Program-made: the position numbers and the translations under genes
Notes under the pieces: model-generated
What the model saw: the letters and a program-made list of their open reading frames with translations, nothing else
The model's database searches: none
What the model was told of the DNA's origin: nothing
Shown here: piece by piece, positions 9,710-30,118 of the stretch
Layout: every line of letters starts with the position of its first letter
Numbering within the stretch: position 1 is the stretch's first letter
Source: Halobacteriovorax marinus
Lineage (GTDB): Bacteria; Bdellovibrionota; Bacteriovoracia; Bacteriovoracales; Bacteriovoracaceae
DNA length: 64,000 nucleotides
Assembly (NCBI GenBank): GCA_002163155.1
Contig: MAAO01000006.1
Location: 1,116,001-1,180,000 of the forward strand
Direction of reading: 5' to 3'

Positions 9710-12531
9710 TGAGAAAACTAATAGCTCCTTTTTTCATCTGTCTTTCAGTATTTGCTAACGATCCGCTTAGTTCTTTACAGTGGGCCTTACAAAACAATGG
9801 TCAGCCTATATTTAGATCAACTGGTGAACTCACTAGAGACTTTATTCCAGGTCTTAAAGGCGAAGACCTAGGTATTCCAAAAGACTACCAAGCTACAGAT
9901 AAGACAGTCATTGTAGCTGTCATCGATTCAGGAGTTGATTTTGAACACCCTGATTTAAAAGATAATATTTGGGAAAATCCAAAGTGTAAGGATTTAAATG
10001 CTGAAGAGAGAGCAAAAGAAGCCTGTCATGGTTGGAATTTTCTAGATGGTAATAGTGATATTACTGATGATGTGGGGCACGGAACTCACGTGGCCGGAAT
10101 TATCGCGGCAGTTGAAGGAAATGGTAAAGGGATAAGAGGCGCTGCTTCTAAGAATGTTAAAATCATGCCTTTAAAGATATTAAACTCTAAAGTGAAATCA
10201 TTCGTCTATGAAAAGAAAGTGATTACAAATATCATAGCTGATGCCATAGCCTTTGCTATTAGTAATGGTGCACAGGTTATTAACTTAAGTTTAGGATGGC
10301 CAAAACTCATTCACACTAAGAAAGTTCGCTTTGCCATAAATAAGGCGATAGAGAAGAACATCCCTATTATTGTGGCCTCTGGAAATAATAATAAGAAAGT
10401 TCCCGTTTATCCTTGTTCGTATAATGAAGTGATCTGCGTGGGCGCGATGGATAATAATGGACGAATTCCTGAGTTTTCTAACTTTGGTGGAAAAGTAGAT
10501 ATCGTAGCTCCTGGTGAAGGTATTATCAGTACCTATCCAAGAAATATGGAGTCTCGCTTGCTAAGGATTCCAGGTTATGAAATTAAAAAAGGGTCATCAC
10601 AAGCTGCTCCTTTTGTGTCAGCATTAGTCGCGCTTTTAAAGAGTCAAAATCAAGAAATATCAATAGATGAAATAAAATATAGAATTTTCAAAAGTGCCAC
10701 GTCTCTTAGAGATAAGAAACAGGCTAAGTTTGGAAAAATTAACTTTAAGAAAATGTTAGATGTCTCATTAGAAGGGGACTTTCCAAAGTTTAATTTTAAA
10801 AACTTAACTGAAGTTGTCGTTTCTGAAGAGGGGAAGTACAGACTCTCTCTTCCTGTAAGAGCTCTTATGAAAGACATTGCAGCAATAGATGTAAAAGTCT
10901 CTCTTACTGATGGTGAGAAAATTATTTCGACAAAAGTTTTTAAAGATTTAAAAATTCTTCAGAGAAAAGAGCGAACTCTCGGTATCAGTGGACAAATTTC
11001 TGATTTTTCTATCTCTAGTCATCTCTCTCTTATTGTTGAATACAATGGAAAGAGATTGGATCACGAAGTTGCCTTTGTTAGACAAATTGAAAAAGTCGCT
11101 AATAAATTAGTCTTTAAACCAAAAGTTAAAGCCTCTCATATTCTAGTTTTAAATAGAGGTAGAAAGATATCAAAACTTAGGAAAGTTGTCGCGAATAAGT
11201 TTACTCAAGACTCTCTTGATTACTTCTATGAACTTGAAAAATCTGAAGATGAATCAAGGATTCAAATCGTATCTCTTATTGGTGATAAAACACTAGAGAC
11301 AGTTATTAAGCTCACTAAGGTAGAAAAGGTCATAAATGTAGTTAAGAATGATTTCAATTTCGACGGAAAAGCAGACTATATGATTTATTCTCTCGGAAAA
11401 GATAAACTGAATCTCGTTCTTAGTTTCTTTAATAAAGATGGATCTGCTTTATTTGGTGATAAATCTGATTGGTTCTTAGAAATTTCTGACTTTGAGGGAT
11501 TACCGTTCTTTAATGGCGAAGTAAAATTTGAATATTTAAAAGTTCATTCTAAAGAGTTGGGAGATGTAAAAGTTCCTCTCTTTATGAAAACTTGGAAAAT
11601 GCCAGAGCTCGATAATACTCTTGATCCTCTCGATCGTATTCACGAACTAGCGGCGAGTAAGAAGCCTTATTATCTGCTACCTACTGTTAGTGAAGGTAGA
11701 GTTTCATTAACTATCAGAACTCTCGCTTCATTTGATTTTATGAGTGAATTTAGAGAAAGATATGACATCAAAGATAGAGATGCCCTTTTCTTCGATACTA
11801 TCATCACGCAAACTACAGCTGAAGCTAGCAAAGGTCAGTTTTCTGCTGTTATGATTAGCGGTCGTGAATTTAATAAATTGTATTATAAAATTAACTTTTA
11901 TTCTAATACAGAGTTTGAATTAGAAGAGTTAAACTTTTCAGGTTATGGTCTTGAGTCTAATAAGACAATGACTAGTATGAATGAAGCGAGTAGCTTTAGG
12001 GCCTCATTCGCCCTAAACGATAGACAGAATCTTAGAACTATCTTTTGGAACGATGAAGGCCAAAGAGAAGTGATGAATTTTAAAACTTCAACTTGGGGAG
12101 ATCTTCTCTTTGACGTCTTTAACTTTACAGATGTTGATGATGAGAAATTACTCTTTGTTGAAAGTCGTTACTATATCTATACAGTCAATGGACTAGGAGA
12201 CTCAGTTAAACTCCCTATTAATAGAGAGAGTAGTTTTCCTGGGGTTAACTTCTCGGAAACTTTTAAGAGTGTTCAAGTGAGTGATAACGATTCTTTGAGA
12301 CCAGCGCTACTGGTTGATTCAAGCTTAATCTATGGAGATCGACTCTATGCTATGGTTTACGATGAAGGGAAGTTCTCGGCTCCTGTTTACGCTAGTTACG
12401 TTGTGCCTAAGAATTGTAAGTATATTGACTCTGTAACATTTAAGAAAAAATCAACGATTGTTCTGGCCTGTTTAGGTAGAACTGGAAGTGCAAGTTTAGA
12501 GCTGGTTAACTTAGAAAAGCGTGTTAAATAG
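9709..12531 (+). CDS. Secreted subtilisin-like serine protease (S8) with long C-terminal region
   Basis: 940 residues; signal peptide to about residue 16 (FFICLSVFA). The catalytic triad is intact: D73 in VAVIDSGVDF, H124 in GHGTHVAGI and S297 in GSSQAAPFVSA, where the usual GTSMAAP is replaced by GSSQAAP; the oxyanion segment IPIIVASGNNN is present. The propeptide region is very short. About 600 residues follow the protease domain without a recognised fold; NFDGKADYMIY resembles an FG-GAP/VCBS-type calcium-binding loop. The start is the ATG at 9709, overlapping the previous stop; an in-frame upstream codon at 9688 would lie in the neighbour and spoil the signal peptide. Likely role: digestion of prey or environmental proteins (inference). 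Confidence 0.9.
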   Translation: MRKLIAPFFICLSVFANDPLSSLQWALQNNGQPIFRSTGELTRDFIPGLKGEDLGIPKDYQATDKTVIVAVIDSGVDFEHPDLKDNIWENPKCKDLNAEERAKEACHGWNFLDGNSDITDDVGHGTHVAGIIAAVEGNGKGIRGAASKNVKIMPLKILNSKVKSFVYEKKVITNIIADAIAFAISNGAQVINLSLGWPKLIHTKKVRFAINKAIEKNIPIIVASGNNNKKVPVYPCSYNEVICVGAMDNNGRIPEFSNFGGKVDIVAPGEGIISTYPRNMESRLLRIPGYEIKKGSSQAAPFVSALVALLKSQNQEISIDEIKYRIFKSATSLRDKKQAKFGKINFKKMLDVSLEGDFPKFNFKNLTEVVVSEEGKYRLSLPVRALMKDIAAIDVKVSLTDGEKIISTKVFKDLKILQRKERTLGISGQISDFSISSHLSLIVEYNGKRLDHEVAFVRQIEKVANKLVFKPKVKASHILVLNRGRKISKLRKVVANKFTQDSLDYFYELEKSEDESRIQIVSLIGDKTLETVIKLTKVEKVINVVKNDFNFDGKADYMIYSLGKDKLNLVLSFFNKDGSALFGDKSDWFLEISDFEGLPFFNGEVKFEYLKVHSKELGDVKVPLFMKTWKMPELDNTLDPLDRIHELAASKKPYYLLPTVSEGRVSLTIRTLASFDFMSEFRERYDIKDRDALFFDTIITQTTAEASKGQFSAVMISGREFNKLYYKINFYSNTEFELEELNFSGYGLESNKTMTSMNEASSFRASFALNDRQNLRTIFWNDEGQREVMNFKTSTWGDLLFDVFNFTDVDDEKLLFVESRYYIYTVNGLGDSVKLPINRESSFPGVNFSETFKSVQVSDNDSLRPALLVDSSLIYGDRLYAMVYDEGKFSAPVYASYVVPKNCKYIDSVTFKKKSTIVLACLGRTGSASLELVNLEKRVK

Positions 12532-20368: not shown

Positions 20369-22591
20369 TTATCTGAGGTCACCGTTAACTTTCTTATATT
20401 CTTCAAGTCTTTCGTCTTTAGAGATTGAAGAGTAACGCTTAGAGATCATATTAAAGATAGATCCATTCTTTGGTCCAATCTTTGAGGCCATTCCTCTAAA
20501 GTTCATAACGCCACCTTTCTTCTTTCCTTTCTTACCAAAGAGGTTAGCGAAAGGATTGGCAGATTTTGCTTTTCTAGTTCTTTTAGAACCTCCGCGGTAA
20601 CTAAGAGAACCTCCACCACCACTGTATCCTAACTTCTTAGAGCTTCCGACATAGGGCTTACTTCCACCGCCGCCTCCAGACTTAGCAGAACCGTTGGACG
20701 GAGCAGAAGCTCCACCACCACCAGCGCCACCACCGCCGCCACCTGAACCAATACCGTTGGTTCCTGAAGCTTTTATTGAAGCTGCACCTGCAGGAGCGTC
20801 TGCTAGACCACTACCTTTTTCTACACCGTTTATTGTATCTCCGAGTCCACCAACTGCACCTTGTCTACTAGTTGCATCACTGGCACTGTTCACTGATCTC
20901 TGTGATGGATCATCAAGGTTTTGAGTGGCATCGGAAGTCGCAAATTGCATTCCGTCTACATTAATTCCTTGATCGTAGTAATCAACACCTCTTTCAAATT
21001 GAGCGTTAACACAATTATCTGCGCCAGGGTTGAGCTGACACTCTGTCGCTAATATATCTTCGCCGTCGTAGGCGAGACTTTCTGGTTCGTGATCTTGTAC
21101 ACCTTTAATGGCGTCACCGACACGACCTGCTTGCTTGTCTAAAATCTCTGCTGTACCAAGCATTGTTACTGCTTGCATTCCGGCGTCTATGAGCGCCTGT
21201 TGCATACCTTCTTTGGCGTCTTCATTATTGACCATAGCGTGAGATGCACCATTACCTAGGTTTCCAATATGTATTTGGCAATTTGATTCTGCAGAGAATG
21301 CTATAACTTCTCCATTTTCATCAGAGTTTTCTTCTAGCTGGTAATCTCCAGTGGTAAAGGTATCTGCTATTTTCTCCATTTGAATGTCAAAATCTTTTCT
21401 TATTCTTTCAATAGCACCTTTTTGATCCACAGATTTTCCTGCAGCGTCGCAACTCTCTTTAATTTTTTCAATGTTGGGCATATTGTAAAGAGCTGTTGCT
21501 AGTACGGCAGCCGCTGCTGTCTCTGATGCTGCTCTCACTCTGGCCATTTCAGCTTTCTTTTCAATTGTTTTCTTCTGCGCTTTTAGACCGGCCGCTGCAT
21601 CTGTTTGAGCATTCTTAGCCATTTCAGTTTGGATGTCCATGGTTTCATCCATGTAGTCCATTCCCTGTACAGTTTCTACTGCTTTCCTACCTATAAAAAT
21701 AATATCATAGGCGGTAACTGCCTTTTTACAGGCCACATAATCTTGAGTTTCATAACCAACAGCTTCACATTTAACCTTTTTATCAAAGGAAGATGTCGTT
21801 GCTGTTTTATTGTCATCACTAACACTCATATTTCTATCACGTCTTGAACTCGACATGACTGCTTGATAAGCAATACATTTTTTGATGAATCCTATGGCAC
21901 TATCTCCTGTTGATTTAACAAGAGCATAGAAGTTATCCATATTATCTACTAAGTCTTCTAGGTCTTTTTCTTTTAAGAAGTGTTTTGGACTTTCTGATAT
22001 TTTACTTGAGTACTTTATACACTGTCCTTCTCCAACGATCATATGATTAGGTGATTGAGTACAATCTGCAATCTTTTCACCATCACACTTAAAGCTATTT
22101 CCTGCCGGTTCTTTCTCACAGTTTTTTATATTTGCATTGTGTTTATAGATGTAAACATCTCCTTCACTCATTCCTTTTTTTACATTTGTACAATCGCCTT
22201 CCTGATATTGAGATTGGTTTCTATCTCCACAGTAAAAATCTCTTTTGATCGTATCTGACTTAAAATTTCCACCGTAAAACTCACCAACTTTCTTGCCTAC
22301 ACTTTCATTAATATTTTTCATTTTTCCGGCAACTTCTTTGGCAAGATACTTTCTCCATTGTTCTTCTGCTACATCTGCACCAAGGTCGTTCCACTCTTTA
22401 GACTTTTCTTGGCATTCGATAAATTCAGTAGAACCTAGAAGTATTTTTGAACTCTCGTCGGAGACAGTTCTATAGTTTAAGGCATCATTCTTAATATTTT
22501 TTTCCACTTCAATTATTTCACTAGCAAAGCTTAGAGAGTTCATTCCAAAGGCCATGATGGTAAGAAGTGATATTTTAATTGTCTTTCTCAT
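20369..22591 (-). CDS. Large secreted Cys- and Gly-rich protein
   Basis: 740 residues with a signal peptide (LLTIMAFGMNSLSFA). The N-terminal 300 residues carry about a dozen Cys, suggesting disulphides. Residues about 325-380 are Ala/Lys-rich helical (AAGLKAQKKTIEKKAEMARV). From about 610 a low-complexity Gly/Ser region contains GSGGGGGGAGGGG and similar runs, and the last 90 residues are strongly basic (RGGSKRTRKAKS, FGKKGKKKGG). This layout of a disulphide-rich head, Gly linker and basic tail suggests envelope or surface anchoring. No homologous domain recognised. Monocistronic. Confidence 0.8.
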   Translation of the reverse strand: MRKTIKISLLTIMAFGMNSLSFASEIIEVEKNIKNDALNYRTVSDESSKILLGSTEFIECQEKSKEWNDLGADVAEEQWRKYLAKEVAGKMKNINESVGKKVGEFYGGNFKSDTIKRDFYCGDRNQSQYQEGDCTNVKKGMSEGDVYIYKHNANIKNCEKEPAGNSFKCDGEKIADCTQSPNHMIVGEGQCIKYSSKISESPKHFLKEKDLEDLVDNMDNFYALVKSTGDSAIGFIKKCIAYQAVMSSSRRDRNMSVSDDNKTATTSSFDKKVKCEAVGYETQDYVACKKAVTAYDIIFIGRKAVETVQGMDYMDETMDIQTEMAKNAQTDAAAGLKAQKKTIEKKAEMARVRAASETAAAAVLATALYNMPNIEKIKESCDAAGKSVDQKGAIERIRKDFDIQMEKIADTFTTGDYQLEENSDENGEVIAFSAESNCQIHIGNLGNGASHAMVNNEDAKEGMQQALIDAGMQAVTMLGTAEILDKQAGRVGDAIKGVQDHEPESLAYDGEDILATECQLNPGADNCVNAQFERGVDYYDQGINVDGMQFATSDATQNLDDPSQRSVNSASDATSRQGAVGGLGDTINGVEKGSGLADAPAGAASIKASGTNGIGSGGGGGGAGGGGASAPSNGSAKSGGGGGSKPYVGSSKKLGYSGGGGSLSYRGGSKRTRKAKSANPFANLFGKKGKKKGGVMNFRGMASKIGPKNGSIFNMISKRYSSISKDERLEEYKKVNGDLR

Positions 22592-22820
22592 AAGCTACCC
22601 AAAGTAAATGTAGAAATATATCGATTCAGATATAATTATACGATTCTTGTCGGATATTCTGGCTAAATTCTTGAATTTTGAGTAGATTTCATTGATAAAG
22701 CTTAAACAAGCACCTGAAATAACTTGAATTACTAGTTTTAAAGGGCATTATTAGAAGTGCTTAAAGACCATGGTTACTGGCAATTTTAGTGGTCACAATT
22801 TCTTAAAAAGGACTAACTCT

Positions 22821-23228
22821 GTGAAAATATTTGAATATCCTCTCACCATAATTGAAGGCCATCTAGATACCTTTGGCCACGTAAATAACGCTACTTACCT
22901 CTCTCTCTACGAAGAGGCGAGATGGGACTTTATCACTAAAGGTGGCTTTGGATTAACTGAAATTCAAGAAAAAAAGATGGGTCCGGTTGTACTTGGCCTT
23001 GAGATTAAATTTACTGCCGAATTAAAAAATAGAGAACCCATAACGATCACTTCAAAAATTCTTGGCATGAAAAATCCTCTGGTCATGCAGATGGAACAAA
23101 AAATGATTAAACCCGATGGTACAGAGGCCTCAAGTATGATCATTCAATTTGGACTCTTTGATCTTAAAAAGAGAAAGTTAGTGCTTCCCACTAAAGAGTG
23201 GAATGCGGCGATAGGTTTTGAAGACTAG
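22821..23228 (+). CDS. Hotdog acyl-CoA thioesterase, YbgC/FadM-like
   Basis: 135 residues from a GTG at 22821 that has AAAGGA eight bases upstream. The frame is open to 22770, but the shorter form matches the family length and begins at the first beta strand. GHLDTFGHVNNATYLSLYEE holds the conserved Asp and the HVNNxxYL motif of 4-hydroxybenzoyl-CoA thioesterase-like enzymes, and WDFI follows. It hydrolyses acyl-CoA or acyl-ACP thioesters. Its TAG overlaps the stop of the opposing VanY gene within CTAG. Confidence 0.85.
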   Translation: MKIFEYPLTIIEGHLDTFGHVNNATYLSLYEEARWDFITKGGFGLTEIQEKKMGPVVLGLEIKFTAELKNREPITITSKILGMKNPLVMQMEQKMIKPDGTEASSMIIQFGLFDLKKRKLVLPTKEWNAAIGFED

Positions 23229-23920
23229 TAGTCTCGGTGCACGTTAATGACATAGTTCTCATAGATCTCTTTGGCGTATTCAATGACGATATCTATGAGT
23301 TCAAAGTCATTGGGATCTTGTGAATTTATAAACTCACTAAAGAAATCAAAGTTCAATTCTTCTAAGAGTAAACTCGAAGTGGGGTGATGAGAGAGGTGCC
23401 ACTTCTCAGGTGCTACGCCTCCTAAGTCTTCTTTGTAGGGACGATAGAATCCAAAGGACTTGTTCTCTTCAATAATTTTATCTAGGAAGAGATGAAGTTT
23501 TCCAAAAATTCCCTCTGGTGCTACTTCTTCTGGTGTTAGTTGAATATTGTAGTCAGGACTTGGAAGAGAAAACTTATCGTACACATCTAAGTCAGTTCCC
23601 CAGTGATGGCGACTCATGCCAGGTAGGGCACTCCATCTTAAAATGGCGTAGACAATTTCTCGATTATTTAATTTGGTAAAATCAATTGGGTTGCCTTGAT
23701 CATCTAGGAGCGCTCGTTTTCCTTGCGCCTTAGCGTTCCATATTCTCTTTTGCGCTTCAAAGCTTCTAAAGGAGCTGGTGAGGCACAGATCAAAGCCTTC
23801 GTTAGCACAGAGCTCTCTAAGCTTTAGAAAGCTCTCAAGGGCATCTGGATGAATGAGGTAATCTCCCACGGGCTGATAACTGGATTGATCAAGACCTAGG
23901 ATAAGCTTATTTAATTTCAT
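23225..23920 (-). CDS. vanY: VanY-type D,D-carboxypeptidase (peptidase M15B)
   Basis: 231 residues. Zinc-peptidase motifs are complete: LTSSFRSFEAQ, SRHHWGTDLDVYD (zinc His and Asp) and PEKWHLSHH (catalytic Glu and zinc His). The family removes the terminal D-Ala of peptidoglycan stem peptides. No signal peptide is visible at the N terminus (KLNKLILGLDQ), unlike most VanY proteins. The enzyme therefore acts in the cytoplasm, leaves by another route, or has another substrate. In a predator, a role in remodelling self or prey wall is possible. Confidence 0.88.
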   Translation of the reverse strand: MKLNKLILGLDQSSYQPVGDYLIHPDALESFLKLRELCANEGFDLCLTSSFRSFEAQKRIWNAKAQGKRALLDDQGNPIDFTKLNNREIVYAILRWSALPGMSRHHWGTDLDVYDKFSLPSPDYNIQLTPEEVAPEGIFGKLHLFLDKIIEENKSFGFYRPYKEDLGGVAPEKWHLSHHPTSSLLLEELNFDFFSEFINSQDPNDFELIDIVIEYAKEIYENYVINVHRDY

Positions 23921-23963: not shown

Positions 23964-24785
23964 TTAAAAAGTTGGAAGTTTTAGTGATCCTTCTTCAAGA
24001 GGAAGAAGGATTCTCTTTTTTTCTAGGCACTTACTGAGTGGTTTGGACTTTAGGATGACTTCATAGCAGTGGTTAATGGCCCTGGCACTGGCGGTGGCTA
24101 CGGCACGGCTAGATCCTTTGAAGTGATCTTTTGTTGGGCCTGAGCTGAAAAAGAACTTCATCTCTTTTGGGCGCAGGAGCGTGTAATCTTCGCGGCTGCC
24201 AAGGACCTGGTCCTTTTCTAAGAAACTACCAATAGTGAAAACCTGTTGATGATTAAAATGAACCTGAGGCCATAGGGTAGAGCTCTTTCTGATTCCTTTG
24301 CCAAGAGTGGCACCGGCCACAAAAATTGGTCTAGTGATCTTCTTAGTAATATTGGCCTTTCCCTTATAGGGGAGACCCGCGGCCGTGATAAAGAGGTGAA
24401 AGTCTGCTTGTTTTAAGAACGCTTTCTTCCAGTAGCTCTCGGCTTGATTGGCATTTTTATCAAAGATGATAAAGGGAGTGATTTCAATTTCTCTTTTAGA
24501 TTTTAGCTCTTTTAGAAATTGTTCTAACACCCATTGCCCATGGAATCTTCTGTTGTCTTTAGAGTATTTAGCGCAATTGAGTTTCACCGAATCGGTTAAA
24601 TCTATGGGGGCGTGTATTTTTATAAACTTATTTGTCTTTAGAAGTTCTGGGCAAAAGCCAGTGTCGAGAAGGGCAATTTTTAAGGGCCCAGCAAAAGATG
24701 ATTGAATAAAGAAAGTGAGGAAGAATAAAATTCTTCCCCACTTAATATTTTTCTTATCTACGTCTTGAATTGTTATCACCTTCAT
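23964..24785 (-). CDS. Degenerate subtilisin-like (S8) secreted protein
   Basis: About 273 residues from ATG 24785; a longer form from 24806 is open. Signal segment RILFFLTFFIQSSFA. The subtilase landmarks are recognisable but altered: LKIALLDTGFCPE (Asp), NRRFHGQWVLEQF (His, normally GHGTHVAG) and KGSSRAVATASAR (Ser, normally GTSMAAP). The oxyanion-hole Asn is replaced in FVAGATLG. The fold is probably kept; activity may be changed or lost. The start lies inside the last codons of the preceding 1204-residue repeat protein, a 32-base overlap implying translational coupling and a shared job. Confidence 0.7.
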   Translation of the reverse strand: MKVITIQDVDKKNIKWGRILFFLTFFIQSSFAGPLKIALLDTGFCPELLKTNKFIKIHAPIDLTDSVKLNCAKYSKDNRRFHGQWVLEQFLKELKSKREIEITPFIIFDKNANQAESYWKKAFLKQADFHLFITAAGLPYKGKANITKKITRPIFVAGATLGKGIRKSSTLWPQVHFNHQQVFTIGSFLEKDQVLGSREDYTLLRPKEMKFFFSSGPTKDHFKGSSRAVATASARAINHCYEVILKSKPLSKCLEKKRILLPLEEGSLKLPTF

Positions 24786-27700
24786 CAGCCATCTCAAATG
24801 GTGCATGAAGTCCTTTTAATCCAGTTACTTTCTTGTAAAGTTTCTTGTCATACTTCTTAAGCGCCTTGTAACTTTTCTTAACTTTCTTAAGGGCTCCAGA
24901 GCTAAATAGTGTTCCAAACATTCTATTTTGAACAGCAAACTTTATTCTGTCTTCAATTGGATCATAGTGCTTCAATGCATTTCTCATAGTATAGTAGAAG
25001 TCATAGGCAAAAAGGAAGAGAGAAACATTCTTATCTCTTGTTTTTCCATCAACTAACTTACCAAGTCTATTGTGAAGTAACGACTTATCATCTTTTACGA
25101 GATCAGCGATATCTTTATCTCTTGAAAGACCTTCACCGCTTAACTTGTAGTGCTTGTTAATTCGCATAACTTCATCGATTGCTCTGATGTTTGCCATTTG
25201 AATTAATTGTCTCTTCGCTGTATCAGCGCTAAAGAAGTTAGTCTTAGTCACTTCACTTTCAATCTTTCCAAGAATTTGATCGTTAGAAAGTTTCATCAAA
25301 TTAGCTAGTGATAAGTATTTCTTGTAGCTGTTGATATCTGCAATAAGAGCAGGTACCGCAGATTTAAGTCCACCAACTCTCATTGGGTTTGCAAAAATCA
25401 CCTTAGTATTCTTAGAAACACCAGCAACATCATAATTGAAGGCTTCAGCGTCTCTAAAAGTTTTAATCGACTTAAGACCAGTGTAACCATTTTGAAGTTC
25501 ATCAATTAGGATCATTACTGTGTTCTCAGACTTGTTCAGCATTCCATCAATTGACTTAATGGCAGCTTTTTCAAGAACTAGTAAAGTCTTACCTTTTACA
25601 CCATTTGCAAGAGGAGCTCTGTTTCTCGTTGGAAGTGAAGTATCAAGAACGCTTGCTCCTTTTAATCCACCCATTGTTGCAAGAAGATCAACTAAGTCTC
25701 TCGCTGAAGCATCAGAGTTTACTACTACTATTGGTTTTCCGTTCTTAGCAATGAATGGCGCTTTTGCCATACTTGTAAGCGGAGAGTTTAAGTAACCTAG
25801 TGTTACACCCTTTTTAGAAACTCTTGCTCTAAAAGTAAGCGGAGTATAGATGTCTGATTCATCATTGATAAGAAGAGTTGCATCTGTAAGAGAAATTGTC
25901 TTTTTAGAAGCAATTTTTGTTACAGGGTTGAAGTTCTTAGTAATGATATTTGTATTAGCATTCACTTCAAGTGAGATTTTAATATCACCTGTGTAAGCTC
26001 TTGATGAACCATTTGTCATGGCCACATTTAAAGAGTTCGCTTCACCAATAATCAATGTTCCAGCAGTATTTAAACGACTAAGGTTGAATGGGAATTGAAT
26101 CTTATTCTTCTTAGTGTCACCAACGTTAATCTTTCCTTGTGAAGGATTAGCATAGTGTCTACCTTGAATTTTTGCTTCAGCACTTAGAGGCGCGTAAGCT
26201 GTAAGGATCTTAGTGTCTATTCTTCCTGCAGGAGCACTAGCTACCTGAGACTTTGCAACACCTTTAACTTTTACAATAGATCCAGCGGCAATTGAAGGAA
26301 CAACAAACTTAGCTCCATTTTCCATCACTACTTTTACATTTTTTGCAGCAACTTTACCAAAGTTCTTAACAACTATGTCGTGAACAGTTGTTTCACCTGG
26401 TTGGAAAATACCATCTCTTCCTGCTACTCCATTGATCCCAGCATCAGTGATACTAGAGGAGATAAATTTAAGAACTGGTTTTTCGTTGTAGATCTTTGAA
26501 ACAGCTGCGTGACGACTTGTTCTGAAAAGTTCAGTTTGTCTCGCAATATTAGCTTCAAAAGTTCTTACTTCAGCAGTTCTATAATGAGCAGAACGAATGC
26601 TTTCAAACACACTTTCATAAGTCGAGTTCTCAACTCTTGAGTATGTCACCTTAAACTCATTTGAGTTTCTATTTGGGCTCATACTAAACTGAGTTCTAAA
26701 GTCATTGTATGAGTTATCATAGTGACCTTGGTAATCTCTGTTATAAGCAGCTCTTTCACCTTGATCGTAACCAGCTTGTCTGTGTGCTGGGTAGGGACGG
26801 TTGTAGAACTCATCATATGAATCATTATAATTGTCATCGTAAATTACATTATAAACTCTAGAGATTGTCGCCTCATAAGTGGCCTGTTGACGTCTCTTAT
26901 ATCTTCTCTTGTAACCGTCACGGAAAGCTTGTTTAACAATCTTTCTATTGTAACTAGCACTTGGATTAAAATTTCTTCCACGGTGTTGCGTAGGGTAAGC
27001 TGGGATTATTCTTGCAAAAGATCCAGCAAATTGACCGTCAAGTGTGATTGGCTTTAAAGACTTAGACTCAAACTGTTGGATTGCTTGCGCTTCACCAGTT
27101 TTTGTCCCATCTCTTCGACCTGTATCTTCAGCTCTTTGATGACCTGCAGTTTCACCTTGGCTATTTCCTAGAGTGGCAGCATTAGAGTTTTGCGCTCTTT
27201 CTCTACCGTCTACTTTTCCAATTCTTGTTGCCGCATCGATATTACCTTGTTCAGTTCCATCAATTTGACCGTCTTCTTGACCTTCTCTTTCCGCTCTAGT
27301 AGAACCATCAACTTGTCCAGTTCGGTAACCAGCTGCGTGGGATCTTTGTTTACCTTCACGGATACCATCAACTTCTCCGTCAAAGTCTCCATCACGGCTA
27401 CCATGGTAAGAACCTAATCTATTAGAAAGAATACGACCATCGCCTTCACCGTCGAGTGCACCTTCTTGCGCTCCCGTTTTGTTAACGGCCAAGACTCTTG
27501 AAATTAGTCTATCTCTATACTTCTTAACTAATTTCTTAGCGTCAGTAAGTTTGACTTGCTTTCTATCCTGCTTTTTCTTAAGTGTTTTTAGAGTCGTTGT
27601 CGCAATATTAACTTGCGCCGCTTTTTGCGTTTCCTGAGTCTTTAAAACTTGTACCTGCGCATTCTTAGTAGTAATTGCAGTATCTAAATCTGCAATTTTC

Positions 27701-28368
27701 TTAGTAAGTTTTGTAACTACTTTATTCGCTGCTTTTAGGTTTGCAACCTTTGTCGCTTTAAATGTCTTTGCTGTTGTAAGAGCATCTTGGTTAGCTTTAA
27801 CAGTAACCTTAGTGGCAGCAATAGCTGTTTTAGTTCTTTTGATTTTCTTTTGACACTGAGCTGTTGGAGTAGCTGCACAAGAAGTTTCAAGACCTGCAAG
27901 CTTTTGTTCTTGTTTGACTAATTTCGCTTGAGATTGCTTTAGTACTGAATCTTTTTGAGAAACAGCTGCTTTTGCCATATCGACTTCAGTTTGAAGTCCC
28001 GGAAGAGTAGCTACTTTTGCAGTTTTTTCTTGCTGTAGTTTACCTTTCTTTGTAATTGAGTTTGTAAGCTCATCACTTAATTTTCTAATCTTCTTTTTGA
28101 TGGCCTTGTGCTCATCTCTAAGTTTCTTAGTCGCATTGTCTTGCGCCGTTACTTTAGCAGTAATGGAAGTGAATTCATTTTGCGCGATAGTTACACTTTG
28201 AACCTTTGTCTGAAGACCTGGATCCTCAGTAAGTCTAAAACTTAAATTACCAACGTAACTTCTGGCCCAATCTGGGTTTGCTAATACGGTTGGCGAAATT
28301 GAGAACAATAACGCCAGCGACAACGACGTTGCCAACCTTGTTTTTGATTTAAACTTCAATCTTTTCAT
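24754..28368 (-). CDS. Giant secreted protein with coiled coil, GX3 array, aromatic-X3 array and beta domains
   Basis: 1204 residues. Signal peptide ends SPTVLA (about residue 30). Residues 50-285 are a Lys/Ala/Thr-rich long coiled coil. Residues 299-425 have Gly every fourth residue in most positions (GALDGEGDG, DGDFDGEVDG). Residues 482-557 have Tyr/Phe at 15 of 19 successive every-fourth positions, and the period resumes at 572-604. A beta-sandwich of CARDB/DUF11 type follows (GRDGIFQPGETTVHDIVVKN), then a second beta-rich part and a helical, Lys-rich C terminus ending NNSRRR. RBS TAGGAG. No known protein of this design was recognised; it is probably a surface or periplasmic fibre. Co-translated with the degenerate subtilase. 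Confidence 0.85.
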   Translation of the reverse strand: MKRLKFKSKTRLATSLSLALLFSISPTVLANPDWARSYVGNLSFRLTEDPGLQTKVQSVTIAQNEFTSITAKVTAQDNATKKLRDEHKAIKKKIRKLSDELTNSITKKGKLQQEKTAKVATLPGLQTEVDMAKAAVSQKDSVLKQSQAKLVKQEQKLAGLETSCAATPTAQCQKKIKRTKTAIAATKVTVKANQDALTTAKTFKATKVANLKAANKVVTKLTKKIADLDTAITTKNAQVQVLKTQETQKAAQVNIATTTLKTLKKKQDRKQVKLTDAKKLVKKYRDRLISRVLAVNKTGAQEGALDGEGDGRILSNRLGSYHGSRDGDFDGEVDGIREGKQRSHAAGYRTGQVDGSTRAEREGQEDGQIDGTEQGNIDAATRIGKVDGRERAQNSNAATLGNSQGETAGHQRAEDTGRRDGTKTGEAQAIQQFESKSLKPITLDGQFAGSFARIIPAYPTQHRGRNFNPSASYNRKIVKQAFRDGYKRRYKRRQQATYEATISRVYNVIYDDNYNDSYDEFYNRPYPAHRQAGYDQGERAAYNRDYQGHYDNSYNDFRTQFSMSPNRNSNEFKVTYSRVENSTYESVFESIRSAHYRTAEVRTFEANIARQTELFRTSRHAAVSKIYNEKPVLKFISSSITDAGINGVAGRDGIFQPGETTVHDIVVKNFGKVAAKNVKVVMENGAKFVVPSIAAGSIVKVKGVAKSQVASAPAGRIDTKILTAYAPLSAEAKIQGRHYANPSQGKINVGDTKKNKIQFPFNLSRLNTAGTLIIGEANSLNVAMTNGSSRAYTGDIKISLEVNANTNIITKNFNPVTKIASKKTISLTDATLLINDESDIYTPLTFRARVSKKGVTLGYLNSPLTSMAKAPFIAKNGKPIVVVNSDASARDLVDLLATMGGLKGASVLDTSLPTRNRAPLANGVKGKTLLVLEKAAIKSIDGMLNKSENTVMILIDELQNGYTGLKSIKTFRDAEAFNYDVAGVSKNTKVIFANPMRVGGLKSAVPALIADINSYKKYLSLANLMKLSNDQILGKIESEVTKTNFFSADTAKRQLIQMANIRAIDEVMRINKHYKLSGEGLSRDKDIADLVKDDKSLLHNRLGKLVDGKTRDKNVSLFLFAYDFYYTMRNALKHYDPIEDRIKFAVQNRMFGTLFSSGALKKVKKSYKALKKYDKKLYKKVTGLKGLHAPFEMADEGDNNSRRR
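26557..26925 (-). repeat. Coding repeat: aromatic-X3 tetrads (residues 482-604)
   Basis: Tyr or Phe recurs every four residues: 482, 486, 490, 498, 506, 510, 514, 518, 522, 526, 534, 542, 546, 550 and 554. A second stretch in its own register has F572, Y576, Y584, F588, Y596 and F604. The intervening residues are charged or Asn/Asp-rich. If helical, this gives a slowly winding aromatic stripe, the mirror of the Gly stripe just before it. Confidence 0.8.
27094..27474 (-). repeat. Coding repeat: GX3 tetrads (residues 299-425)
   Basis: In the 1204-residue protein, Gly falls on 17 of the 20 every-fourth positions from 299 to 375. The register slips by one before G384 and again before G401, giving further Gly at 384, 388, 401, 405, 409, 417, 421 and 425. 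The residue before Gly is often Asp (DG). GX3 repeats of this kind form Gly-striped helices in FliH and in Yae1/Lto1 proteins; here they sit in an exported protein. Confidence 0.8.
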
Positions 28369-28596: not shown

Positions 28597-29262
28597 ATGA
28601 ATTTATATGAAAAAGCATTCTCAAAAGAAATATCAGATACTTACAGGTATATACCCAATTCTTCACTACTCAGTTTCGCAAAATTCACTCTTGATAAATT
28701 TACAAATGCTTCGCACAAGGACGTCTTGGAGATTGGTTGTGGTGCAGGACATATCTTTGATCACATAGAAACGAGACTTGCGAGTGCCGGATTAGATCTA
28801 AGTTCAAGCGCAATTGATTTTGCTTCTGCTAATTCTTCAGCTGAGTTTATTTGTGGCGACTTTTTAAAATTAGAAAATCACAGAAAGTGGGACTTTATTT
28901 TTGATTCACACCTTATTCATTGCTTGATTGGTCAAAAGTGCTTTGAACAATATCTTAGCACTGCCCAAGATCTCCTGCGTAGTGGGGGAATACTTTCAAT
29001 TGAGTTAATGACTAGGGCCAAGCGGCCAGCTTTTGACGAGGGTTATTCTTTTAACGAGTTCGATAATTGTCTCTATAGGGGAGAGACTCCCATAAGATCT
29101 ATTTTCGATGCGCGGAATATAGAAGAAATGATTTTAAATTCTGGCCTAAAAATAGTTTACTTACGAGTCGATGAAACATTAAAATTTATACCAAACCCCA
29201 ATCGAAGTGATAGTTATCCATCCGATCCCGATCGAATGAGAATTGTCTGTCTAAAGGAATAA
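28597..29262 (+). CDS. Class I SAM-dependent methyltransferase
   Basis: 221 residues. Motif I VLEIGCGAGHIFDHI binds SAM, SAGLDLSSSAIDFA is motif II with the acidic ribose-binding residue, and ICGDFL is motif III. HLIHCL and GGILSIELMTR fit a class I Rossmann methyltransferase acting on a small molecule; the substrate is not deducible. RBS AGAATAAGAGA. The stop is one base before mscS, so the two are co-transcribed. Confidence 0.88.
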   Translation: MNLYEKAFSKEISDTYRYIPNSSLLSFAKFTLDKFTNASHKDVLEIGCGAGHIFDHIETRLASAGLDLSSSAIDFASANSSAEFICGDFLKLENHRKWDFIFDSHLIHCLIGQKCFEQYLSTAQDLLRSGGILSIELMTRAKRPAFDEGYSFNEFDNCLYRGETPIRSIFDARNIEEMILNSGLKIVYLRVDETLKFIPNPNRSDSYPSDPDRMRIVCLKE

Positions 29263-29263
29263 C

Positions 29264-30118
29264 ATGAATTGGTTAGCCACAACCTTTAAATACCTCTCAA
29301 CACCACTTTTTGAAATAAGTGGAAATCAGATCTCTCTCATCTCTATTTTACTAGCGGGAGCAGTCTTTTTCTTAACTACGACTCTAGCTAAAATGTCTGA
29401 GCGTTTCGTCAATCGAGTTCTCGCTGATAAAGATATTGATGTGGGTGTTCAGGGCTCTATTGTACGTATCACTCGCTATATTGTTCTCTTTATAGGGATC
29501 TTGATAACTCTTGATACCGTAGGGATTTCTCTATCTTCACTTGCTGCTCTTGGTGCCGTTCTCATGGTTGGAGTGGGGTTTGGATTACAAAATATTACTC
29601 AGAATTTTATTTCAGGAATTATTATTCTCTTTGAAAGACCAGTTAAAATAGGGGATCTCGTTACCGTAAAAGGGATCTCTGGCAAGATTATTGAAATTGG
29701 AGCTAGATCAACTTTGATTCATACGCGAGATGATGTGGCGATCATTGTTCCCAACAGCCAATTTATTTCTGAGCAAGTGGTGAACCAAAGTTTCACTGGT
29801 GAGAGAATGCGAGTGACTGTAGATGTGGGAGTTGCATATGGCAGTGATACACAAAAAGTTAAGGATCTCTTGCTCGAAATTGCAAATGGAATGAATGGTG
29901 TTCTCACAAATCCTACTCCAAAAGTTTTCTTTGATAACTTTGGAGACTCTTCTCTCGATTTCACTGTTGCCCTGTGGATAGATGATATTTGGGATTACAG
30001 AGAAGTTCTCTCTAACGTTAGATTTTCCATCGATCAGTCGTTTCGCGACAATAAAATCACCATTCCTTTTCCTCAAAGAGACTTACATATCTTAAGAGAC
30101 CTACACGAAAGTAATTAA
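29264..30118 (+). CDS. mscS: MscS-family small-conductance mechanosensitive channel
   Basis: 284 residues, the size of E. coli MscS. Three membrane helices: residues about 22-42, 70-88 and a Gly/Ala-rich pore helix LAALGAVLMVGVGFGLQNITQNFISG. The conserved FERPVKIGD begins the beta domain, and VIVPNSQFISEQVVNQS follows. It releases solutes during hypo-osmotic shock, useful to a marine bacterium or to a predator growing inside prey. RBS AAGGA overlaps the upstream stop. Confidence 0.95.
   Translation: MNWLATTFKYLSTPLFEISGNQISLISILLAGAVFFLTTTLAKMSERFVNRVLADKDIDVGVQGSIVRITRYIVLFIGILITLDTVGISLSSLAALGAVLMVGVGFGLQNITQNFISGIIILFERPVKIGDLVTVKGISGKIIEIGARSTLIHTRDDVAIIVPNSQFISEQVVNQSFTGERMRVTVDVGVAYGSDTQKVKDLLLEIANGMNGVLTNPTPKVFFDNFGDSSLDFTVALWIDDIWDYREVLSNVRFSIDQSFRDNKITIPFPQRDLHILRDLHESN

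Follow-up and report, generated by a model that had tools for sequence, protein, structure and literature searches.

A glycine-every-four array followed by an aromatic-every-four array in a predicted exported protein of Halobacteriovorax marinus suggests an unusual helix–helix zipper

A gene on the reverse strand of the 64,000-nucleotide stretch of Halobacteriovorax marinus DNA analysed here (the window; 24754–28368, stop codon included) encodes a protein of 1,204 amino acids in which glycine recurs at every fourth position over about 130 residues, and in which a second array follows where every fourth position is tyrosine or phenylalanine. The stripe pattern is confirmed; it does not arise by chance, and it is conserved. 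This paired design of a glycine helix and an aromatic helix suggests an unusual helix–helix zipper, and the best explanation appears to be an exported rod in which the glycine helix and the aromatic helix zip together as a hairpin within one chain, a proposal to which we give an even chance. The gene, which is defined by its open frame and its orthologues, is present as a single copy in its own genome.

Domain layout and predicted structure

The N-terminal leader of the array protein (residues 1–31; 28276–28368, reverse strand, as for all features of this gene) is Sec-like by inspection, with cleavage placed between MKRLKFKSKTRLATSLSLALLFSISPTVLA and N. This agrees with the signal peptide proposed in the first-pass annotation, and it is from the leader that export of the protein is predicted. 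The leader is followed by an antiparallel coiled-coil hairpin with C164 and C172 at its tip (residues 48–290; 27499–28227), which is seen in the AlphaFold2 model and matches an Smc coiled coil. The glycine stripe comes next (residues 299–429; 27082–27474), with a main segment (299–375), a second segment (401–425) and two +1 skips; it is delimited by counts, periodicity and shuffles, and is helical in the model. A conserved turn (GxFAGxFxRxIPxFP..., residues 435–475; 26944–27066), visible in both the alignment and the model, joins it to the Tyr/Phe stripe (residues 482–604, made up of 482–554 and 572–604; 26557–26925), which is likewise based on counts, periodicity and shuffles and falls on AlphaFold2 helices. 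The remainder of the protein consists of two Ig-like beta sandwiches (residues 631–871; 25756–26478), supported by the model and by transglutaminase beta-sandwich matches, an alpha/beta domain of alternating strands and helices assigned from AlphaFold2 secondary structure only (residues 880–992; 25393–25731), and a helical C-terminal region with a conserved PF at its end, assigned from the alignment and the model (residues 1015–1195; 24784–25326). The long coiled coil N-terminal to the arrays and the beta-sandwich domains C-terminal to them, both anticipated in the first-pass annotation, are thus found in the model.

The AlphaFold2 model was built from 25 sequences and has a mean pLDDT of 83.9 with a pTM of only 0.46. 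It places helices at residues 50–166, 170–393 and 399–434, the second of which unites the coiled coil and the glycine array, and these are followed by a non-helical turn containing one strand. The aromatic array is modelled as four helices (476–522, 527–563, 570–590 and 593–629). Block values of pLDDT in the arrays are mostly 75–92 and drop to 51–70 around kinks. Both arrays are predicted as long helices and not as disordered segments. In structural comparisons, the first hairpin (model residues 17–253) matched the Smc coiled coil 5xg2 with a Z of 15.4 and an rmsd of 3.9 over 235 residues, and residues about 631–871 matched a transglutaminase beta sandwich with a Z of about 11 (12.2 for a single-domain match), while no structural relative was listed for the array region, which was searched within the whole model and not folded alone. 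The fold shared by the first hairpin and Smc-type antiparallel coiled coils is only a common coiled-coil arrangement; unlike Smc, the array protein has no ATPase head and is predicted to be exported.

Counts and periodicity of the two stripes

An exact recount returned glycine at 17 of 20 successive fourth positions from residue 299 to 375 and Tyr/Phe at 15 of 19 from residue 482 to 554, as had been reported from the first reading of the sequence. These counts were never matched in 20,000 within-region shuffles, in which the best values were 12 and 11, respectively. Binomial tails calculated with the whole-protein composition, and uncorrected for the positions tried, were 7e-18 for glycine and 7e-15 for the aromatic residues, and the stripe scores of 25 (glycine) and 15 (aromatic) compare with best scores of 5.7 and 5.3 in 300 whole-protein shuffles. 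The additional aromatic block at 572–604 (F572, Y576, Y584, F588, Y596 and F604) is also present, though in another register than that of 482–554, with the stripe reaching F604 via two −1 skips. The glycine stripe continues beyond residue 375 (G388, A392, A397, G401, G405, G409, A413, G417, G421, G425 and A429), which brings it to about 130 residues with its two +1 skips included, and the skip pattern is common to most Bacteriovoracaceae homologues. The second glycine segment (384–429), the skip residues and the adjoining subtilisin-like gene had been overlooked in the first-pass annotation.

Fourier analysis gave peaks at about 4.1 for glycine and about 3.9 for the aromatic residues, and the stripe periods also differ slightly (about 4.06 and 3.94). 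A strict test at exactly 4.0 is weakened because the stripes carry skips. Within the arrays, Tandem Repeats Finder reports only one 2.5-copy 12-mer. Recent DNA repeats do not account for the arrays: since almost no DNA repeat remains, the pattern is maintained by selection at the protein level and not by recent duplication. A search of the genome with a GX3 DNA pattern retrieved only simple repeats elsewhere. The same genome holds a perfect-looking tandem repeat of the 18-bp type (GGAGTTGGATCTGGGTCC), apparently intragenic, at C13:109437–109732 (L060–L079).

Spread and conservation

Orthologues were found in all 5 of the genus members examined and matches in 27 of 98 relatives, the named loci belonging to Bacteriovoracaceae, Halobacteriovorax and related MAGs. 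A search with the array region gave matches in about 55 of the 291 genomes of the phylum, among them members of families f6, f8, f14, f20, f24 and f25, a count that is slightly high because at least one weak match (L105, in genome G114) is a GNSN low-complexity protein and was rejected as a homologue. The glycine array lies N-terminal to the aromatic array in all the homologues read, which come from several families and include 11 of 11 distant proteins. The arrays are ancient. In family f8, the glycine stripe is about 40 tetrads long.

Conservation was evaluated in an alignment of 19 orthologues with 23–59% identity to the window protein; for the profile search of genome contigs, a closer set was preferred to this full 19-row alignment, which was too diverse. 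Among the 19 orthologues, the mean entropy of the main glycine stripe is 0.38 bits versus 2.41 bits at X positions, and that of the aromatic stripe is 1.35 bits versus 2.44 bits. Indels are few, nearly none, in the glycine array region, the clearest exception being L017, from which one tetrad has been deleted in each of the two arrays. The period of four is retained in orthologues.

Several homologues show a variation on this arrangement. Mixed stripes of glycine and tyrosine before the Ig-like domain (for example, VEEGKRDGYRAGFERGKTEAYAEDYAAGRRDGDKEGYERTY) are found in L092–L094, L096, L098 and L102, where they lie within and after the aromatic array. A separate observation concerns L032, where a frame of G021:C1 starting at base 1069 encodes 397 aa; the product is lipoprotein-like, with a Cys after a short leader, and has a long [G-Y/F/S/H-x-D] array in which glycine and aromatic residues share one helix, as in FliH, and are not divided between two arrays.

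Comparison with known families

Searches of Pfam and NCBIfam found no family covering the array protein, in keeping with the earlier statement that it fits no known one. When the two arrays were searched separately, as the first-pass annotation had proposed, the glycine array gave only low-complexity matches among PDB sequences (GQMP, GQPS and GHMN repeats), which are not relatives, and the aromatic array alone gave nothing significant there; the PDB matches listed for the whole profile were mostly generic coiled coils. A phage search gave no match to the array protein, and the sole plasmid match, a weak one to a Vibrio VWA protein, was judged to be driven by composition.

The array protein contains a long GxxxG repeat segment of the FliH type. 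The AxxxG(xxxG)mxxxA segment of FliH/YscL (Trost and Moore 2009, PMC2674601) is likewise a long GxxxG run with polar X positions that is predicted to be helical, and NCBIfam FliH models match the glycine array weakly (residues 332–385, E 2e-4), at 20.8 bits against a cut-off of 293, far short of it, and over array residues only. The longest FliH run in the survey is 10, or 12 in one excluded strain (PMC2674601), whereas the stripe described here amounts to about 32 tetrads with a few gaps and skips. Furthermore, the aromatic residues of FliH are found inside the glycine repeat, at position x1, whereas in the array protein they form a separate second array, and the signal peptide, recognised by inspection, argues against a cytosolic role of the FliH type. 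A GX3 array is also present in the deca-GX3 proteins Yae1 and Lto1, cytosolic Fe–S assembly adaptors of eukaryotes (PMC4523923), but these have neither the aromatic array nor the exported architecture. Pfam searches with an E limit of 5 for the window protein and of 0.01 for 25 homologues gave no hit to Yae1. To our knowledge, the array pair is unlike any GX3 protein, while the GX3 helix itself is known.

The neighbouring subtilisin-fold gene

The gene adjoining the array gene (23964–24806, reverse strand), which overlaps it by 53 bp, encodes a predicted exported protein of 280 amino acids with a subtilisin fold and the residues Asp48, His89 and Ser233. Its AlphaFold2 model (pLDDT 87.6, pTM 0.83) was assigned to this fold by Foldseek (5.4e-8) and VIA (Z 18.9, rmsd 3.3 over 223 residues), and the catalytic residues are conserved in the f1 homologues (Asp48 and His89 in 29 of 29 rows each, Ser233 in 28 of 29). 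The copy in the window has no Pfam match, S8 included; of 27 homologues, 6 match Pfam S8 when E values up to 1 are admitted, the best being 4.5e-4, and the S8 model scores over the cut-off in the subtilase-like genes of L090, L094, L096 and L099. The neighbour thus shares the subtilisin fold and the D/H/S positions with peptidase S8, but it is small, and shorter still in L090 and L099, it has extra conserved cysteines, and no oxyanion-hole Asn is evident where it would be expected in the alignment of homologues.

This gene lies directly downstream of the array gene in 22 of 24 contig loci, and in the other two the array gene ends at the contig edge. Five homologues that belong to other families likewise have a subtilase-like gene adjoining the array gene, this neighbour being downstream in L090, L091 (a weak Pfam match) and L099, and convergent (3’ to 3’) in L094 and L096 of family f8, so that there is no single operon in these last two. 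The pairing of the genes in f8 outlives the change in orientation. In the divergent f1 homologues L022, L023, L025 and L027, no subtilase gene was found in the 0.8–1.5 kb downstream. The subtilisin-fold protein is probably a functional partner of the array protein, and would most likely process or activate the rod, or be held by it; the link could be one of maturation, activation or tethering, and the proteolysis by the partner is putative.

A glycine–aromatic zipper and its alternatives

The proposed molecule is a Sec-exported rod built of two successive helical hairpins. Hairpin 1 (about 48–290) would be an ordinary antiparallel coiled coil with Cys164 and Cys172 at its tip, and its second helix would continue straight into the glycine array. 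The chain would then reverse at the turn 435–475 and come back as the aromatic array, with the Tyr/Phe stripe sitting in the groove left by the glycine stripe in a four-residue repeat, and the aromatic arm would terminate near the base of hairpin 1, where the Ig-like and C-terminal domains would be displayed. Both the packing of the glycine arm on the aromatic arm and the role as a rod are what we infer from this layout; the packing is plausible, and an intramolecular hairpin is the simplest reading. The fibre or self-assembling sheath envisaged in the first-pass annotation is at present unsupported.

An alpha helix turns by about 400 degrees over four residues, so stripes that match would have to wind right-handed with a pitch of about 50 Å, and a right-handed stripe of period four on a 3.6-residue helix means that two such stripes can touch along their whole length. 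The X positions are mostly polar in both arms, with the exception of small residues beside the aromatic ones, which leaves the stripe as essentially the only packing surface of each helix. The arm lengths, measured by clade as the glycine stripe and as the distance from the aromatic start to the Ig anchor, are 89/110, 130/148, 129–133/145, 145/155 and 149–157/154 residues, and hence the two arms are comparable in length and covary between clades (n=5). The array ends were taken from a simple scoring script that in many f1 sequences overran the stripe into the tip; for f1, the glycine-arm value of 130 counts the stripe as far as residue 429. The suggestion made in the first-pass annotation that the two stripes pack against each other is indirectly favoured by the covarying arm lengths, the single apolar face and the paired loss of a tetrad in L017, and the contact as such stays conjectural. 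For FliH, too, sequence statistics have led to the proposal of aromatic-on-glycine contacts (PMC2674601). The zipper meets certain difficulties, as in a simple hairpin register the two deletions of L017 are not opposite one another, and so support length matching only, the periods of the stripes are slightly unequal, the aromatic arm is split into four helices, the length trend comes from five clades and the model has a pTM of 0.46.

Homotypic assembly offers a different account, in which glycine helices pair Gly-to-Gly across chains in the right-handed GxxxG manner and aromatic helices pair likewise, resulting in a dimeric or fibrous rod. A period of 4.0 at an interaxial distance of 6.0 Å leads to a crossing angle of about 41 degrees, as is usual for GxxxG pairs, while 8 Å would need 55 degrees, so that a Gly–Gly pair fits this geometry somewhat better; dimerisation is also the established role of GxxxG and has been proposed for FliH (PMC2674601). 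Notwithstanding, we regard such assembly as rather unlikely, as it leaves unexplained the constant co-occurrence, the fixed order and the covarying lengths of the two arrays. The helices could also remain unzipped, with the stripes binding something else, such as the partner subtilase or a polymer along the aromatic stripe. Rows of aromatic residues can bind glycans or peptides, and the pairing with the subtilase gene is conserved, but four homologues keep both arrays with no subtilase neighbour detected and the matched arm lengths are given no reason, which makes this reading improbable. It is most improbable of all that the arrays are low-complexity or disordered segments with no defined structure. 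Glycine does form helices poorly, and AlphaFold2 may over-predict helix in repeats; however, there is almost no DNA repeat, the X positions have diverged while the stripe is fixed, the few indels in the 19 orthologues include as the clearest one a whole tetrad, and the pLDDT of the arrays is mostly 75–92.

The zipper may, in addition, stand for a new helical packing class, namely a heterotypic right-handed four-residue zipper in which a glycine stripe some 130 residues long on one helix takes up a matching Tyr/Phe stripe on another, serving as a long exported rod with a subtilisin-fold partner across Bdellovibrionota; for this wider claim the chances seem somewhat less than even. A survey published in 2009 described long runs of GxxxG as extremely rare in proteins other than FliH, and no long example had then been solved (PMC2674601). 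The present family supplies stripes of 30–40 tetrads, several dozen natural sequences and an aromatic counterpart within the same protein, and thereby makes the packing of long GX3 helices testable on one soluble fragment. It also adds a conserved, unannotated and predicted exported protein, usually encoded beside a subtilisin-fold protein, to what is known of a group with bacterial predators among its members, and may provide a template for designed rods.

Gene surroundings in the window

The array/subtilase pair is flanked (22770–23920 and 28597–30118) by thioesterase-like, VanY, methyltransferase-like and MscS-like genes, which stay beside it in several relatives, an arrangement that is probably an old gene order. 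Further along the window, the reverse strand at 20369–22591 encodes a protein of 740 amino acids that begins with a leader and whose C-terminal part is very rich in glycine; no Pfam family was found for it. A clear full-size subtilase domain is encoded on the forward strand at about 9901–10719 (G000:C1:1125901–1126719), within a 951-residue frame; it is one of nine in the genome and is separate from the degenerate neighbour of the array gene.
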